A DNA stretch of 64,000 nt. It comes from Dioscorea cayenensis subsp. rotundata (lineage: Eukaryota > Streptophyta > Magnoliopsida > Dioscoreales > Dioscoreaceae). The position numbers were made by a program, and so were the translations under genes. A model generated the notes under the pieces. That model had not been told where the DNA came from and made no database searches. It saw only the letters and a list, made by a program, of their open reading frames with translations. Shown in pieces: positions 1,943 through 54,218 of this stretch. The stretch lies in NCBI RefSeq assembly GCF_009730915.1, contig NC_052475.1:27651016-27715015 (forward strand), read 5' to 3'. Each line of letters opens with the position of its first letter. The first letter of the stretch is position 1.

Positions 1943-3590
1943 ATGTCCAACACATCTGAAGATGAATCTCAGCAGCCATTTTTGCCTTCTGTCACCGCTA
2001 AACCAGACACCTCCTCTATTAATCCTCCATCCAAGAAGCGACGAAGCCTTCCTGGCAATCCGGGTACATTGTTTCTCTTAATTATACTCCATATATATAT
2101 ATATATATGTTTTTCTCCTTCACTTCATTCATTTATTGTGTGTATATATATATATATATATATAGATCCAGATGCAGAGGTTGTAGCTTTATCTCCAAGA
2201 ACACTATTGGCAACAAATAGATACATATGTGAAGTCTGTCACAAAGGTTTTCAGAGGGACCAGAATCTTCAACTTCATAGGAGAGGACACAACCTGCCAT
2301 GGAAACTCAAGCAGAGAACAAGCACTGAAGTGAAGAAGAAGGTCTATGTCTGTCCTGAAGTCACTTGTGTTCACCATAATCCTAGTCGGGCTTTGGGAGA
2401 TCTAACAGGCATAAAGAAACACTTCTCAAGGAAACACGGTGAGAAGAAATGGAAGTGTGATAAGTGCTCTAAGAAGTATGCTGTTCAATCTGATTGGAAA
2501 GCTCATGCGAAGATTTGCGGCACCAAAGAGTATCGATGTGATTGTGGCACCATCTTCTCTAGGTATTATTATTATTCTTAATTATTAGTGTTCCCATATA
2601 TATATATATGCATGCATTGGAGATTTTGATGAAGATTTGTTGCTATATATATGTTCATGCAGGAAAGATAGCTTTGTGACACATAGAGCTTTTTGTGATG
2701 CATTGGCTGAAGAGAATTATAGAACAAATCATGGACTTGCATCCATGGTTGGGAGTTTGCAAAGCCAAACACAAGACTTGTGTTCTCATTCCATGCCAAG
2801 CTTGCATTCATCAAGCATTGATACCATGATGAACTCAACCAGTTCTGATCACAATTCAAATAATCCTCACTCACTCTCACTTAATAATCCACTCATGGCT
2901 AACACTTCTGACATGATTTTCAATCCAAGTGCGATGAGGAACTCAGGCCTGCAACTTGGAGGAATGAACACGAACATGATGAGCTCTGGTGGATCAAGTA
3001 GTAGCCTTCGAATGTCGATCGGGTCTAGCTACATGTCGGCCACTGCTTTGCTTCAGAAGGCGGCGGAGATGGGCGCAAAGGTCAGCGATAATTCTATATC
3101 TCCGATACTCCTTCGAGGCTTCACCGGATACTCAAGCAGTTCCAAATCATTGGTTTCTATGCAAGAACCTGTGAATCCTTTCTCAACAGCAGTAGCTGAT
3201 ACTAATGCATATGTTGGAAATAATCCAAGTACTACTACTGATCATCATCATCATCATCATGCTTATAATTCAGTGAATGCTGAAAATCACACATCCATGG
3301 TTGGTTTAGAAGCACAATTAATAAGGAGGAACACTAGTAATACTACTACTAGTAGTCATGAAGAGATGGGAGAGAGAAGAGATGGGAGAATGACCCAAGA
3401 TTTCTTAGGATTGGGACCTGCTGGAAATGCAAGAATTAATAGTGATCATGGATATGTTGAGAACTCTGTGGGACTTAGGTATTCAAATGAACATCAACAA
3501 AACCAAGAGGAGATGATGTACACTGGTTACCACCATAGCATGTCACAAGGCCAACAACCCACGTTGGCAAAGCCTATGTGGGATTTTTAA
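1943..3590 (+). CDS. INDETERMINATE-domain (IDD/BIRD) C2H2 zinc-finger transcription factor
   Basis: Three exons, 1943-2063, 2166-2562 and 2663-3590, give 481 residues with the frame kept at both junctions. The N-terminus has the basic nuclear signal KKRRSLPG, followed after splicing by PDAEVVALSP, the classic entry to the ID domain. Four zinc fingers follow: C2H2 finger 1 (CEVCHKGFQRDQNLQLH), a longer C2H2 finger 2 starting CPEVTCVHH, a CCHC finger 3 (CDKCSKKYAVQSDWKAH) and a CCHC finger 4 (CDCGTIF, split by intron 2, then KDSFVTHRAFC). The C-terminal half carries both family motifs, MSATALLQKAAEMG and MTQDFLGLG. It also has a His run encoded by a CAT microsatellite near 3243-3261. IDD proteins are plant nuclear DNA-binding regulators that often act with GRAS proteins in patterning, metabolism and flowering. 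Which IDD subgroup this is cannot be fixed from sequence alone. Confidence 0.95.
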
Positions 3591-4490
3591 AGCATGCATG
3601 TAATTAGCTTCATATCTGAAGTTTTAAGTCTAAATTTAATGTTTATCTTTAATATATAAAAAAAAGCATATATCCCAACAAGTTGAAATGCTCTCTTTCA
3701 AATCTGTGGTTTATCCACATAATGTGGACCACATTATTCAAGAAAAAAAATGCTCTGTTTCTTTTTGATAATTCTAGTAGCAATTAATGCAATGACTTGG
3801 AAGAGCAAGAGTCAACTGCATGATATATATATATATATTGTACAAAAGTGATATATATATATTATCTTTGATCAATATCTATATTCTCATAAAATTTCAA
3901 CTCCACTAAAACAATCACTTTTAAGTACCACACTGATCTAAAATTATGCTTTAATCAACAACTCTTTGGAACAAATTAAGTGGAATTAAGCATCTTGGTA
4001 AACAATTAACCTTACTATAAAGGCCTCTATATATATTCCTGTGAGAATTGATGCTCTATCCCACTATAAAAAACCATACATATATACATTTGATCATCTG
4101 ATTAATTAATAAGCATCAATCTAATGAACATAGATATTATTTTGAAGAAGAAATAATTAATGCATGAATTAGTCCTTCTTTTTCTCCATCACTTTCACAT
4201 CTTGTTGTATGTCTTTGCGGTGTTCAAAAGCCGAGGGCCAATACGATGGAAGCATCGCCATTGGACTGCAATCATCTCCAAGTTTGGAGTCTTGAGATCC
4301 ATAGGCCTATCCGAAACCCCACCTTGTTTTGGCTTCATCTCCATTAACTTCTTCATTTGTGGACTTTGCTAACATAAACCCACAAATTTTAGATGGTTTT
4401 CCCATCCCTAAGCCATCCTTCTCTCCCAGCTTGTCCTTTTCCTTTATCACTATGCTTTGCACTCTTCTTCACAAGTACTCTAGCTTCTTC
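3591..4490. other. Spacer downstream of the IDD gene
   Basis: No gene is supported here. The first part is the IDD 3' UTR, with AATATATAAAAAAAA near 3650 as a possible polyadenylation region. The rest is AT-rich spacer with short TA runs. A 70-codon ORF at 4160-4372 has no recognisable content. A small perfect-stemmed hairpin lies at 4238-4264. Confidence 0.5.
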
Positions 4491-4494
4491 TTCT

Positions 4495-4507
4495 TATATA
4501 TATAAAT
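4495..4507 (+). promoter_or_regulatory. TATA box for the miR477-like transcript
   Basis: TATATATATAAAT lies about 65 bases before the hairpin at 4563. A start site some 30 bases downstream would place the stem close to the 5' end of the transcript, a usual arrangement for plant Pol II microRNA genes. The local background is TA-rich, so the match alone is weak; its position is what supports it. Confidence 0.45.
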
Positions 4508-4562
4508 CTCTCTGTGTATATGTACATATAAACATGCAAGTTCACAGAGTGAGAAATTAAGG

Positions 4563-4689
4563 AGCATGGCTTTTCTTGGGTCTCTCTCTCAAAGGTTTCC
4601 TACAAGGAGGTGCATGGTTTACTTAGTTGTTTGTAGCTAGTGGCCATTGGAGAAGACCTTTGAGTGAGAGATCCTAGACATGCAATGCT
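4563..4689 (+). ncRNA. Candidate pri-miRNA hairpin, miR477-like
   Basis: Positions 4563-4607 pair with 4645-4689 in one register: each pair of coordinates sums to 9252. No bulge is needed. Of 45 positions, 35 are Watson-Crick, 2 are G-U and 8 are mismatches, around a 37-base loop. The 21-mer at 4582-4602 on the 5' arm (begins CTCTCTCTCAAAGG) matches the miR477-5p consensus as I remember it (C/ATCTCCCTCAAAGGCTTCC...) at about 17-18 of 21 positions. With 2-base 3' overhangs the star strand would be 4652-4672, and the duplex has 3 mismatches, within plant miRNA criteria. A TATA box lies just upstream. The fold is seen directly. The family call is from memory and inference. An inverted repeat from a transposon is the main alternative, but the single register and length fit a miRNA precursor better. 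Confidence 0.65.
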
Positions 4690-4699
4690 ATATATTATT

Positions 4700-14460: not shown

Positions 14461-15216
14461 ATGGCTTCCCGACGAACTCTCAAGCTCAAGTCCATCTCCT
14501 GCAAAGGCCTCAAGTTCTTCAATCTCTTCCAGAAACCCTCGATCTGCGCCACCGTCTCCCTTGCCAATCCCCGTGATCGCAAACCGATTCAACGCCACGA
14601 GACGCCGGTGGACCGTGACGGTGGCGAGAATCCCGAGTGGGATCTCCCGATCCGGTTCACCCTTGAGCCTGATCGTCAGTTGGATCTCATCCTCCGCTTT
14701 GATCTTATCCATAAAGGTGGTCTTCTCCTCGGAGATAGGATCGTCGGAGAGGTCACCGTCCTCGTTGCCGATCTCGAGGCAGAGGCCATCCCCGGCGTCG
14801 TTCGCCACGTCAGCTACCAGGTGAAGTCCCCGGAGGGTAAGCCCAACGGAGTTCTTACCCTTGCTTATAAGATCCGTGACCCCAAGGCCGTGATTTCGGT
14901 TTCGGCGCCGATGTCTTTTGGATATCATTACCCTTCCCCTTCGGAGCCGCCGCCGCCGCCGCCGCCGCCGTTGATGTCTTCCGGGAATTATTACCCTTCT
15001 CTGGAGGTGCCAGCGCTAGCGCCACTACTGCCGATGGCTTCCAGTTCTTATTACCCTCCCCCGGCAGCGGTGGATCCTGGCTATATCCACTGGCCGGATC
15101 CAGCAGTGTACTACCCGCCGTACCCACCGGAACACGTGGGCTATTATCCGCCACCGGTACAGGGTGGTCACCGGACGGAGTTCTCTTGGGGACGGGGTTT
15201 GACTGGGTATAATTGA
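14461..15216 (+). CDS. SRC2-like C2-domain protein
   Basis: A single exon of 251 residues. The frame stays open upstream to 14296, but I chose the ATG at 14461 because MASRRTLKLKSISCKGLK is the usual start of an SRC2-type C2 domain and a TATA-like box lies about 40 bases before it. The C2 domain covers about residues 1-140 (SICATVSLANP, NPEWDLPIRF, LILRFDL, LLLGDRIVGEVTV, VSYQVKSPEGKPNGVLTLAYK). The rest is Pro/Tyr-rich, with a Pro8 run from a CCG microsatellite and repeated YYPP motifs, as in SRC2 (soybean gene regulated by cold) and related plant proteins. These are thought to bind membranes or phospholipids in stress responses. The promoter has ACGT elements and a 27-bp duplication. The exact orthologue is uncertain. 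Confidence 0.88.
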   Translation: MASRRTLKLKSISCKGLKFFNLFQKPSICATVSLANPRDRKPIQRHETPVDRDGGENPEWDLPIRFTLEPDRQLDLILRFDLIHKGGLLLGDRIVGEVTVLVADLEAEAIPGVVRHVSYQVKSPEGKPNGVLTLAYKIRDPKAVISVSAPMSFGYHYPSPSEPPPPPPPPLMSSGNYYPSLEVPALAPLLPMASSSYYPPPAAVDPGYIHWPDPAVYYPPYPPEHVGYYPPPVQGGHRTEFSWGRGLTGYN

Positions 15217-38892: not shown

Positions 38893-39637
38893 GGGTCCGT
38901 TTGGTTAGAGGAAATGGAAATATGGGGATGGGGATGGAGAAGGGGAAGGGGAAGGGGATGGGAATATAAATAGGAAAAGGGGATTGGGGATGGGAACAAA
39001 AGTAATGTTTGGTTGGAGGGGATGGGAATAGGAATAAGATAGAGAATAGGAGAAAATTTTAGTAAAATTACTTTTTTACACTTTAATATTTTAATTAAAT
39101 AATATATCTTGTAAAAGAAACAATTATTATTAAATAGCTCCAATTTCTATAAAAAAATAAATGAGTTATTCATTTTCTAAATAAAATTTTAAATTTATAC
39201 ATTTTAATTGATGAATACGATTTAATTATTTTTATTTAAAAATAAATAAATGTTCAAATTTAATTATTTTTTTAAATCACTAAAAATATAAATAATTTTA
39301 ATATTTTTAAAAAAATAAATACAATGTATAATATGTCATTTCTTAATTTTCATCCAATACGATGTAAATACAATATAAATATAATGTATAAATACAATGT
39401 AAATCATTAACATTTAAATAAATATAACATTATAAAGGGTAAAAAGGTAATTACATCATCAAGGCATGCTCAATCCCCCCAAAAATGAGGGGGATGAGCA
39501 TGAAGGGGTTGAGGGGCATACAATCCCCCCTCAATCCCTTCCCATATCCCTAGGTGCATGCCCAAACATGGGCATGCACATGCCACAAGGATTGATCCCC
39601 AATCCTTGGGGATCAATCCTTGAATCCAAACATGCCC
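38893..39637. mobile_element. Tourist-like (PIF/Harbinger) non-autonomous element, 745 bp
   Basis: TAA lies on both sides (38890-38892 and 39638-39640). The left end GGGTCCGTTTGGTTAGAGG resembles the reverse complement of the right end, GGGCATGTTTGGATTCAAG. The ends carry GGGGATGGG-type purine/pyrimidine repeats (left, and mirrored near 39475-39620); the middle is AT-rich with no transposase. It lies between the last two relic exons of the Tudor-SN pseudogene. Confidence 0.7.
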
Positions 39638-40141
39638 TAAATTCTTTTGAACTGGTTAGAGTACATTCACTCAAATATTCTATATGCAAGGCTGCACAGC
39701 TGGGCCAACCCAGATGCTGATGAGACTGATGGATCAAGAGGCTGTAAGCTGCTGCTATATGGAACCTCTTTATGGTTACAATAGTCGAAATAGAAGACCT
39801 TGAGCTTGTCCTTTGATGAATCTACACTTCCTCCTAGTGCATTGACGATCTACAATCATATTAATAAAATTTTTAACATCATGGCTAAAACATGGCACGA
39901 TTATTGAACAAACATTACAAATGTCAGATAATGAGAATGAGTAATATACCATGGCTCTGTTCCATGAATTATCTAGACTGAATTGTGCCAGGACAATATA
40001 AGGAAACATACACAAACTATTTCAATGGTTTAGAGAGCACCTTGAGCACTTCCTTCGGTTTTTCTTCCGTTGCCAAACCATTAGGGACTTCATGTTCATC
40101 CACCTGATTCTCCCATATTTAACAATGAGAAGACATAGAGA

Positions 40142-40452: not shown

Positions 40453-43400
40453 ATCTCCACCTTGGCGAGATTTGCAAGCCACATCACAAATCATCTCATC
40501 ATCGACATCCACCTTAGTATGAAATCTCACACCAATCTCACAAGTTCCTTGCTGCATCTCCAACAATTCAAACAATCACAATGTTGACCAAGTTCAAGCA
40601 ATGATTGAACTTGGCACCACCAATGACCTTAGTCATCATATCAGCAGGATTATCCCTTGTATGAATTTTCTGAAGCAAAATAACCCCACCATTCACAATA
40701 TCACGAACAAAATGAAAACGAACATCTATATGTTTAGTCCGAGCATGGTGAACCTGGTTCTTTGCTAAGTGAATAGCACTCTGGCTATCACTAAATACCT
40801 CCACCTGGTTTTGGTTAAACCCCAAGTCTGCAATCAGTCCATGTATCCAAATGGCCTCCTTCAAAGCTTATGTTGTTGCCATATACTCTGCTTCTGTAGT
40901 AGATAATGCTACAGTAGACTGCAATGTAGACTTCCAACTGATAGGCCCACTAGCCAAAGTAAACAAATACCCTGCAGTAGACCTCCTATTGTCCAGATCA
41001 CCAGCAAAATCTGAATCCACATAGCCAATGAGAAATCTGTCATCATTCTCATGATTTCTCTCAAATTTTAGACCAACCTCCATAGTGTCTTTAATGTATC
41101 TCAATACCCACTTTGCAGCTTCCCAGTGTTTTTTTCCTGGATCATGCATATATCTACACACCATACTAACAGCCTGGGAAATATCAGGTCTTGTACATAC
41201 CATAGCATACATAAGACATCCAATTAAACTAGCATAAGGTACCTTCTTCATATAATCTCTTTCGACATCAGATTTTGGGGATTGATCAGCACTCAATTTA
41301 AAATGAGGAGCAAGAAGGGTACTAACTGGTTTAGTGTGTTCATCCATGCCAAACCGCTGTACTATCTTCTTCAAGTTTTGGTTTTGACTCAGATGCACTG
41401 TGCCCTTTACTCTATCTCTACTAATCTCTATGCCCAATATCTTCTTGGCCTCTCCTAATTCCTTCATTTCAAATTCTGAGTTCAACTGGTTCTTCAACTT
41501 ATCAACCTCAGCAATATTTCTTGCAGCAATTAACATGTCATCCACATATAACAATAAGTAAATGAAAGTCCCATCCAACAACTTCTTAAAGTAAACACAA
41601 GGATCATAAAGACTTCTTGTGAATTTCTGAACTTTCATAAATTGATCAAACCTCTTGTACCATTGCCTTGGAGACTGTTTCAAACCATATAATGACCTGT
41701 TCAACCTGCAAACCAAGTCTTCCTTGCCAACTGCCTTAAAACCTTCTGGTTGTGACATGTAAATCTCCTCTTCCAAGTCCCCATGCAGAAATGCAGTCTT
41801 CACATCAAATTGTACCAAATTCAAGTCAAACTGAGCAACCAAAGCCAAAAGAATCCGAATAGATGAATGCTTTACTACTGGAGAAAAAACTTCATTGTAG
41901 TCAAGTCCTTCTCTCTGTGCATAACCTTTGGCCACCAATCTTGCCTTGAACCTCACACTATCTTTTCCCTGAGTACCTTCCTTTTTTGCATACACCCATT
42001 TGCAACCAATCTCTTTTCTTCCCTTTGTAAGCTTCACAAGCTCCCAAGTGTTATTCTTCTGAAAAGATTGCATTTCTTCATCCATAGCCTTATTCCAATC
42101 CATTTTTTCTGAACTTCTAATGGCTTCTTTATAGGTGGTTGGAATGTCATCTTCTAAAACAGGCAACGCATAAGCAACCATGTCAGCAAATCGGGGTGGC
42201 TTTCTGATTTCTCTCCTTGTCCTAGTTGCAGCTATACTATTATCATGCTGCTGTTTAGGTTCATGCTGAGAACCTCCATCAATATTATCTGTAAAATCAT
42301 TTGTAGGTGTAGGGCTTGCATTCATCTGAGAACTAGCTGCATTATGCTCAAACTCCACCTGTTGCACATTCCTGCTTTGCACAATTTTCTTACTAGGTTG
42401 TATTTCACTTTTGAGAAATCTGCCTTCATCAAATGTAACATCTCTGCTTAATATCAACTTCTTCAACTTTGGGCACCATAACTTGTATCCTTTGACACCA
42501 CTGCAAAGACCCAAAAATACACCTTTCTTTGCTCTCGGATCAAGTTTACTTTCTGTGACATGAAAGTAAGCAGTACAACCAAAAATATGCAAAGAATCAT
42601 AATCAGTAGCAGGTTTTCCAGTCCACACCTCATAAGGTGTTTTACCTTCAAGTGCAGCTGATGGTAATCTATTGATGAGGTGGCATGCATATGCAACTGC
42701 CTCTGCCCAAAACATCTTGCCCAAAGCAGCGTTGGATAACATACACCTCACCTTTTCCAACAAGGTCCTGTTCATCCTCTCTGCTACCCCATTTTGTTGT
42801 GGATTTCCCCTCACTGTGAAATGCCTCATAATACCTTCATCTTCACAAAATTTCTGGAAAGAATTAGACTTGTACTCACCTCCGTTGTCAGACCTCAAGC
42901 ACTTTATTTTCCTTCCAGTCTGATTCTCAACCATTTTCTTCCAAACCAAAAAAGTGTTGAAAACCTCATCTTTAGTCTTCATTGTGTAGACCCAAACTCT
43001 TCTGGAAACGTCATCTACAAATGTAACAAACCAAAACTTTCCTCCTAAAGATGCAACCTGTGTTGGCCCCCAAACATCTGTATGCACATAATCAAGAATT
43101 CCTTCAGTCTGATGTACTGAGGTTCCAAATTTCACCTTGGTATGTTTTCCCAATTCACAATGCTCACAAAAATCAATCTTGCATGTCTTTGCACCCTTTA
43201 ACAAGCCTTGCTTGACCAGCCCTTGTAGTGCCTTCTCACCAGCATGTCCAAGCCTCATATGCCACAACCTAGAAGCATCAGAAACACCTTCACTCTGCTT
43301 GGCAACAATCGTAGCAGCTCCACCTACAATTGTTTTTCCTTGTAGAAAATACAAATTCTTCTGTCTGGCTCCTCTCATCACAACCATAGCACCCTTGGAC

Positions 43401-44639
43401 ACTTTCAGCTTACCTACTTCCATTGTGACTTTGAAACCTCTAGATTCCAAAGCACCCAAAGATATCAGATTTTTCTCCAGATCTGGTACATACCAAACAT
43501 TTGTCAACTCCCTGATAGTTCCATCATGAAGTTTCAAACAGATTGTGCCTACTCCTTTCTTTTCACATGCATAATCATTTCCCATGAGGACTGTCCCATT
43601 ATCAGATAACTCCAAACTAGTAAAATGATCCTTATTCGGACACATATGGTATGAGCAACCAGAATCCATGATCCAACTATTTGAAATACCATCAGAAGTG
43701 GATACCAAAGCAAACTCAGAGTCATCATCCCCCTGGGCCACATTAGCATTCTCAGTTTTCTTCTCTTTTCCCTTCTCCTTTTGCTTCAATTTTGGACAGT
43801 CTTTCTTCCAATGACCTTTATTATGGCAGAATGAACACTCATCTTTTGCTGGAATTTTTCTACCATCTGCTGAAGTTCCTCTCAAAACTCCTCTAGACTT
43901 GGACCGAAACTTGTTCTTCTTATCTGATTGTCGTTGCTCTATTCGTCCCCTTACTGCTAATGCTTTTGAATTCTCAAACTGGGCCTGCTTATCTCTCCTA
44001 CGAAACTCATTATTCATCAAAGCATCAGAAACATCCTTAAATGTTATTGAATCTTTACCATAAATTAATGTGGTGGCAAAATGATCAAACGAATTAGGTA
44101 ATGAACTCAATAACAATAAGGCTTTATCTTCATCTTCAACTTCTTCATCCAGATTTAACAAATCAACAATCAATATATTGAAAGAGTGAATATGCTCCAT
44201 CATTGGCGTACCTTCTTTGTATGAAAAACGGAAAACTTTCCTTTTCAAATACAAACGATTTTGAATGCTCTTCATCATGTATTTATCTTCTAGTGTCTGC
44301 CACAAATCTTTTGCCATAGTCTCTTTCATCACGAAATACTTCACCTCCTTTGCAAGACAGAGACGAATGGTGCCACACGCCAATCTATTCATCTTCACCC
44401 ACTCATTCTGTTCCATATCATCCGGTTTATCTTCTAGGGTTACATCTAACCCTTGTTGCACAAGAACACCCACCACTTCACACTGCCACATTCCAAAATT
44501 CGTGTTCCCATCGAATTTTTCAATTTCAAATTTTGCATTTGAAACAGCCATCTGTGCTGTGCGAGATCCAATTGCTACCTGTATTCCAGATCCAGATCCG
44601 GGCATTCTCTCACAGGATCGAATCTCTCTCATACCACTT

Positions 44640-44950
44640 TGTTGTGGAAAAACAAATAGAAATATGCAAAAATAAAATGAAAATGCACAAGAACACAGGA
44701 ATTTAACGTGGTTCGGCTTTCAATCAAGCCTACATCCACGGAGCAGCAAGAAAACCCTCTTAATTTTCAATGACGAGCAATACACACATACAAAGGGGAA
44801 AAAACAAGGAAAAGTTTCATATAACCCCCTAAGTTATTCCAAAATTGGCCAATGGGTTCACGAATAAGTAAAATGACAAATCAACCCATATAAAATAGTA
44901 TAGGGTTGAAAATGCAAAACGAGTCATCCAACTTAAGCCCCAAATCAACA
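44640..44950 (-). repeat. Copia LTR, right copy (5' LTR by coding strand)
   Basis: Partner of 40142-40452. Being on the right of a minus-strand element, it is the 5' LTR, next to the primer-binding site. Confidence 0.95.
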
Positions 44951-53415: not shown

Positions 53416-53423
53416 TACACAAC

Positions 53424-54218
53424 TAGAGCTGTCAATTCGGACTTGGCCCGCCGGGCCAACCCGCCCCGCCAATAAAAATGGGCGGGTCGGGTTGGTCTTT
53501 ATAAAGCCTGCCCTGAGGCGGGCTAAATGGTCAACCCAGCGCTGGGCATGGGTTGGGGTGGGTCGACCATGACCCGCCTCTAATTTATATATAATATATT
53601 TTTATATAATATATATATATATAATGATATTGAAATATTATTAAGGATTTAAATTAAAAAAATAAATAAATAATTTTTAATGAAGTTTAATATGCATTTA
53701 ATTATGTTTTTAAAAAGAAATATGGAGATAACAAAAACATTTTTAATGACTATTGATTTTTGATGAATATTATGATTAGTAATGGATGCTTTTTATTTTT
53801 GTCTTTTATTAATTTTTGCTAAATTTTTGTTGATTAGTAATGAATAGATGTTATAATTAGTAATAGATGTTTTTATCTCGTGGTTTGTTGTTGTTTTTTT
53901 TTAATTTTGTTGATTGTAAATTTATAATAGTGTTTTTATTTAGAGATTTTGTAATTATTGTTGATTTTGTTAGGTTTTGAATATAATAATGGATGTTTTC
54001 ATTTTGTTAATTATTGCATGTTTTAATTTTTAATTTAGTTTTTTTATGAATTTATAATGAATGTTTCAATGTTTCATATATTACAACATTTATAAAAATA
54101 AAATAAATTATTATTTTTTATTTTTTGGTGGGCCGACCCGCCCAACCCACAACCCAAACGGGTCAAGTTGGGTTGGCATTTTGCCGGCCCGCCCCGTCAG
54201 CCCGTTTTGACTGCTCTA
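53424..54218. mobile_element. hAT-type non-autonomous transposon with 8-bp target duplication
   Basis: The element is 795 bp, flanked by TACACAAC on both sides (53416-53423 and 54219-54226), an exact 8-bp duplication as made by hAT transposases. Its ends are TAGAGCTGTCA and, reverse-complemented on the right, TAGAGCAGTCA. The subterminal 100 bp on each side are GC-rich with repeated GGCCCGCC/CAACCCGCC motifs (right end GGCGGGCC-type in inverse orientation); the middle is AT-rich and non-coding. It has no transposase. Confidence 0.85.

Follow-up and report, generated by a model that had tools for sequence, protein, structure and literature searches.

In plants, DCL1 cuts out a small RNA duplex from a folded transcript and AGO1 takes up one of its strands. 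RAD1-like genes belong to a class that is known to aid roots in accommodating beneficial fungi. A described system joins the two: in Poncirus trifoliata, miR477a reportedly controls RAD1 (PtGRAS18), its target, and mycorrhizal symbiosis (PMC11900033), and a review states that arbuscule abundance falls under miR477 overexpression (PMC12873713). Elsewhere the targets reported for this family vary, since a degradome table from peanut lists other, non-GRAS ones (PMC5335773); in Eucommia, miR477a is listed with a GRAS target named DELLA RGL1 (PMC5099690). A listing within one survey gives miR477 for gymnosperms and eudicots, with monocots absent from that listing (PMC9100975). Bread wheat miR477 expression is cited in a mulberry paper (PMC5325578), and a wheat microRNA paper also refers to miR477 (PMC6038988). 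A literature search for Dioscorea together with miR477 returned two papers, both on other plants, and one for monocots with miR477 yielded nothing of use.

The locus described here lies in a 64,000-nucleotide stretch of Dioscorea DNA (hereafter the window; contig C5, 27.65-27.72 Mb). Its sequence makes it probable, and in our judgement well so, that it is a diverged MIR477-like microRNA gene which, beside a second and more canonical hairpin termed L005, silences RAD1-like mRNAs. Judged from the published description of the Poncirus module, the likeness to it is that a GRAS gene of RAD1 type is paired with a small RNA of miR477 type. The two differ in that the pairing here is a prediction, and in that this genome contains two MIR477-like hairpins as well as two RAD1-like genes. 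The features of the hairpin are as follows.

4563..4689, + strand: predicted MIR477-like precursor hairpin, based on its folding energy, shuffles, 37/45 pairing and one genome copy.
4580..4602, + strand: predicted 5p mature zone (21-mers starting at 4580, 4581 or 4582), based on miR473-1/miR477 likeness and target pairing.
4652..4674, + strand: predicted star zone (4652-4672 for a start at 4582, 4654-4674 for a start at 4580), based on 2-nt overhangs.

The hairpin is confirmed, and chance does not account for it. Its best ungapped register sets 4561-4605 against 4647-4691 with 37 of 45 positions paired (34 Watson-Crick and three G:U pairs) and no bulge, enclosing a loop of 41 nt; this is the count that the preliminary description had given for a single, bulge-free register. 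Folding of 4563-4689 reaches a minimum energy of -52.8 kcal/mol (z = -4.62), and none of 200 shuffles was equally low. Three hairpins of 37/45 were found on the + strand of the window, with an arm GC of 0.44 for 4563-4689 and 0.24 and 0.22 for the others. Forty dinucleotide-shuffled windows gave two hairpins of such pairing in total, none with an arm GC of 0.40 or more. Ranked by raw folding energy over 140-nt segments, the hairpin does not fall within the window's 25 lowest, which sit in GC-richer stretches. Many genomic copies had been named beforehand as the mark of a MITE; a search of the 584-Mb genome (2249 contigs), which skips very common words, found one copy, and a MITE or repeat origin was rejected on that ground.

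Structural criteria for plant MIRNA genes ask for a single foldback with at most five duplex mismatches, 2-nt 3' overhangs and no large bulge. The predicted duplex 4582-4602/4652-4672 agrees with these, showing exact 2-nt 3' overhangs and two mismatches (4587 and 4599) in the first 19 positions, and the internal loops of the fold are all symmetric as far as 4605. The mature 5' end may lie at 4580 or 4581 instead of 4582, because pairing with the site in one of the GRAS genes (L004, below) is best for 4580-4600 and a start at 4581 provides a 5' U.

Family resemblance was judged against mature sequences as printed in papers. The 5' arm agrees with ppt-miR473-1 and with ppt-miR477 at 17/21 positions each, in both cases the best match in the window on either strand. 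This bears out the earlier estimate that the 21-mer 4582-4602 matches miR477-5p at about 17-18 of 21 positions, where the range of four mismatches named is a loose criterion for family likeness. The agreement with mes-miR477f/g is 16/20, tied for first place with an unrelated site at 14494, and mes-miR477j and one form of mes-miR477k have their best window match elsewhere than at the hairpin. Among 109,192 shuffled hairpins, 14 were as similar to any of the 11 reference sequences. The strings of the hairpin arms were not found in the main texts of the PMC papers searched.

A whole-window Rfam scan (E <= 5) returned 14 matches, and MIR1446, MIR477 and MIR473, which we take to be the only known plant microRNA families among them (the other microRNA matches being presumably animal), all weakly match the hairpin. 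It falls short of the gathering scores of both MIR477 (RF00780, 24.5 against 65 bits) and MIR473 (RF00778, 24.0 against 52 bits), and hence is classed as MIR477-like, without formal Rfam membership. Falling below these thresholds does not disqualify a divergent member, since the predicted and more canonical L005 also misses them (MIR473, 34.1 against 52 bits). A search of the plant's own genome with the Rfam MIR477 model gave no match at E <= 10 among the 51 of 55,408 candidates that were scored, a share small enough to make the result uninformative. MIR1446 (RF00954) gives the hairpin its highest raw score, 28.2 bits, with an overlapping CUCUC-CUCA core, but the arm is only 15/21 identical to UUCUGAACUCUCUCCCUCAAC and the mature position is shifted towards the 5' side. 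Membership was rejected on that identity and on the gathering score of 70. With MIR477 and MIR473 the hairpin shares a predicted mature product on the 5' arm and a predicted complementarity of that arm to a RAD1-type GRAS gene, the latter as in Poncirus; it departs from them in two internal C-to-U changes of the arm and in Rfam scores far below gathering.

A genome-wide pattern search for miR477 with one mismatch allowed found 40 places against 35 for a backward control, so most of the 40 are chance. Thirty of them became loci, of which three besides the window were informative: L005, L004 and L006. L005:1375-1540 (- strand; contig C17 near 6648914) is a strong predicted hairpin of 166 nt with a canonical-looking miR477 5' arm, and a folding energy of -62.4 kcal/mol (z = -5.81). 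Local alignment of the two finds an 18-nt stretch of the arm (15/18), with loop and flanks at the level of shuffled sequence; the precursors are unlike outside the arm, and homology between precursors or flanks was rejected. L004 and L006 were also rejected as further miR477 loci, both being GRAS genes on the opposite strand. With the criteria applied, L006 shows no foldback and L004 a poor one (15/20 arm positions, -0.256 kcal per nt, against -0.41 for the window hairpin and L005). L022, L023 and L027 passed a loose pairing filter and have weak energies of -0.222, -0.137 and -0.252 kcal per nt.

The two GRAS genes are as follows.

C10:2305813-2307273, - strand: RAD1-like GRAS gene L004, carrying a miR477-complementary site.
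C32:68880-70265, + strand: RAD1-like GRAS gene L006 (also L038), carrying a miR477-complementary site.

Both products are GRAS proteins (Pfam 3.2e-108 for L004 and 9.1e-112 for L006), and the miR477-type match in each is the antisense of codons for LEAFEGE. Arm 4580-4600 is predicted to pair with the L004 site at 21/21 positions (two G:U, penalty 1.5); for the L006 site the figures are 20/21, two G:U and a penalty of 2.5. L005 pairs with both sites at a penalty of 2.5. None of 347,697 composition-matched shuffled hairpins reached 2.5, the lowest penalty being 4.0. The genome holds 49 GRAS-like matches, and among the 30 loci fetched and scored only L004 and L006 qualify, with the next penalty at 7.0. 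These target tests and the likeness to miR477 do not count as independent evidence, since the GRAS site is the complement of miR477.

A wobble-allowed 20-mer pattern run over the genome found five places: the hairpin locus, both GRAS genes, and one place each at C5:24024459 and on contig C1407. Its reversed control found eight, so the count by itself means nothing. What is notable is that, with the hairpin locus set aside, GRAS genes make up two of the four. The remaining two match with penalties (2.0 and 2.5) similar to those of the GRAS sites. No open reading frame of at least 90 aa covers the site at C5:24024459, and the C1407 place sits inside a 123-aa frame of unknown kind. Inside the window, and setting the hairpin's own arms aside, the best non-self penalty of the 5' arm is 8.0. 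The 3' arm reaches 7.0 in the adjoining IDD gene, and both values were taken as chance.

The N-termini of both GRAS proteins carry LRFRDHI-type stretches that resemble the published motif of RAD1-1, whose orthogroup has an N-terminal motif printed as including LHFRDHIWTYKQRYLAAEA (PMC5332381). By eye the likeness is clear for LRFRDHIGTYKQRFWATEA in L006 and weaker for LRFRDHIRNFKKKF in L004, and by this motif both genes are putatively RAD1-like. Over 477 aligned codons they show 64.7% nucleotide identity, with 51.8% at third positions of conserved amino acids; as sequences, the two are old duplicates. The longest identical run in their alignment is 25 nt and spans the site, the next being 21 and 19 nt. 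Selection on a microRNA site would leave such a run, although a single gene pair is no proof of it, and part of the conservation comes from constraint on the amino acids LEAFEGE. The GRAS site stands out in three tests: the 347,697 shuffles, the 25-nt run and the 30 GRAS loci. Together with the single copy and the miR477-like arm, these support the initial proposal of an independent microRNA locus, as far as sequence can.

In the surroundings of the hairpin, two putative promoter elements were read directly from the sequence.

4495-4507, + strand: TATA-box-like TATATATATAAAT, about 60 bases upstream of the hairpin.
4527-4532, + strand: second TATAAA.

A TATA box had been placed about 65 bases upstream, in good agreement with the first of these. 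Upstream, the nearest gene encodes an IDD zinc-finger protein; its frame ends at 3590 and leaves 972 bases to the hairpin. Downstream, no coding exon was recognised before about 7845. This is in line with the initial view that protein genes are missing for about 1 kb upstream and 3 kb downstream. Frames from about 7845 onwards presumably belong to a NIPA-type transporter; two short pieces of them gave no Pfam match. Between the IDD gene and the hairpin, a 57-aa open frame at 4195-4368 (- strand) has protein-like composition and no Pfam match. Further along the window, a GC-rich block at 39441-39640 holds several strong foldbacks and some of the window's lowest folding energies on both strands, and is possibly a mobile-element remnant. 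A second GC-rich stretch at 53421-53600 combines long inverted repeats with a very low folding energy, likewise on both strands. A 1283-aa open frame at 40868-44719 (- strand) is one that we take to be a Copia-type retrotransposon polyprotein.

Three other explanations of the locus were weighed. The most serious, though we regard it as unlikely, is that the hairpin is a MIR477 paralogue which has decayed and lost its processing, and that L005 does the work. The L005 hairpin is indeed longer and stronger and pairs with both GRAS sites, and the window arm departs from the exact site complement at two positions. Both differences, however, are C-to-U changes that leave a G:U pair in place, and the long stem is still well paired, which is unexpected under neutral decay. 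It is less probable still that the hairpin is a young, target-derived microRNA, arisen from a recent inverted copy of a GRAS gene and not from an old MIR477 member. In favour of such an origin, the 5' arm agrees with the complement of the L004 site at 19/21 positions, against 17/21 for known miR477. A recent inverted copy should nevertheless extend further than the site, and by eye, over an 80-base comparison, the likeness to both GRAS genes stops there.

We give the least credit, and very little of it, to the idea that the CT-rich foldback has no function and arose by chance or from a transposon. A short CT repeat at the start of the arm would fit this, and three hairpins in the window against two in 40 shuffled windows imply that the window does contain some foldbacks of other origin. 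Against it stand the one genome copy found, the lack of a GC-matched counterpart in the 40 shuffles and a target pairing unmatched in the 347,697 composition-matched shuffles. As to origin, an old and diverged family member fits better than a recent copy of either L005 or a target gene, since the likeness to L005 is limited to the arm and that to the GRAS genes ends, by eye, at the site.

We therefore retain the diverged MIR477-like gene as our working model, in which the steps beyond the hairpin are ones that we infer for this locus. The locus would be transcribed by RNA polymerase II as its own RNA, from which DCL1 would excise the duplex. The 5' arm would then enter AGO1, and the loaded complex would cut or repress the two RAD1-like mRNAs inside the coding sequence of the GRAS domain. 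Arbuscular mycorrhiza may in this way be tuned through RAD1-like mRNAs, in the manner described for the miR477a-RAD1 pair of Poncirus.

A wider reading, which we put forward tentatively and with some doubt, is that a miR477-RAD1 module exists in a monocot and that two unrelated-looking hairpins converge on one nucleotide-conserved site in old RAD1-like duplicates. The novelty of a monocot miR477 is lessened by its mention for wheat (PMC5325578, PMC6038988). If true, such a module would point to a microRNA control of arbuscule development older than the split of monocots and eudicots. Should our working model itself hold, a single plant genome would have two or more loci of MIR477-like type, with products that match one site common to two RAD1-like regulators of symbiosis; the longest DNA run conserved between these genes lies at that site. 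Divergent MIR477 members that lie below Rfam thresholds would become recognisable through their target, and the breadth of conserved microRNA control over mycorrhizal GRAS factors would become testable.
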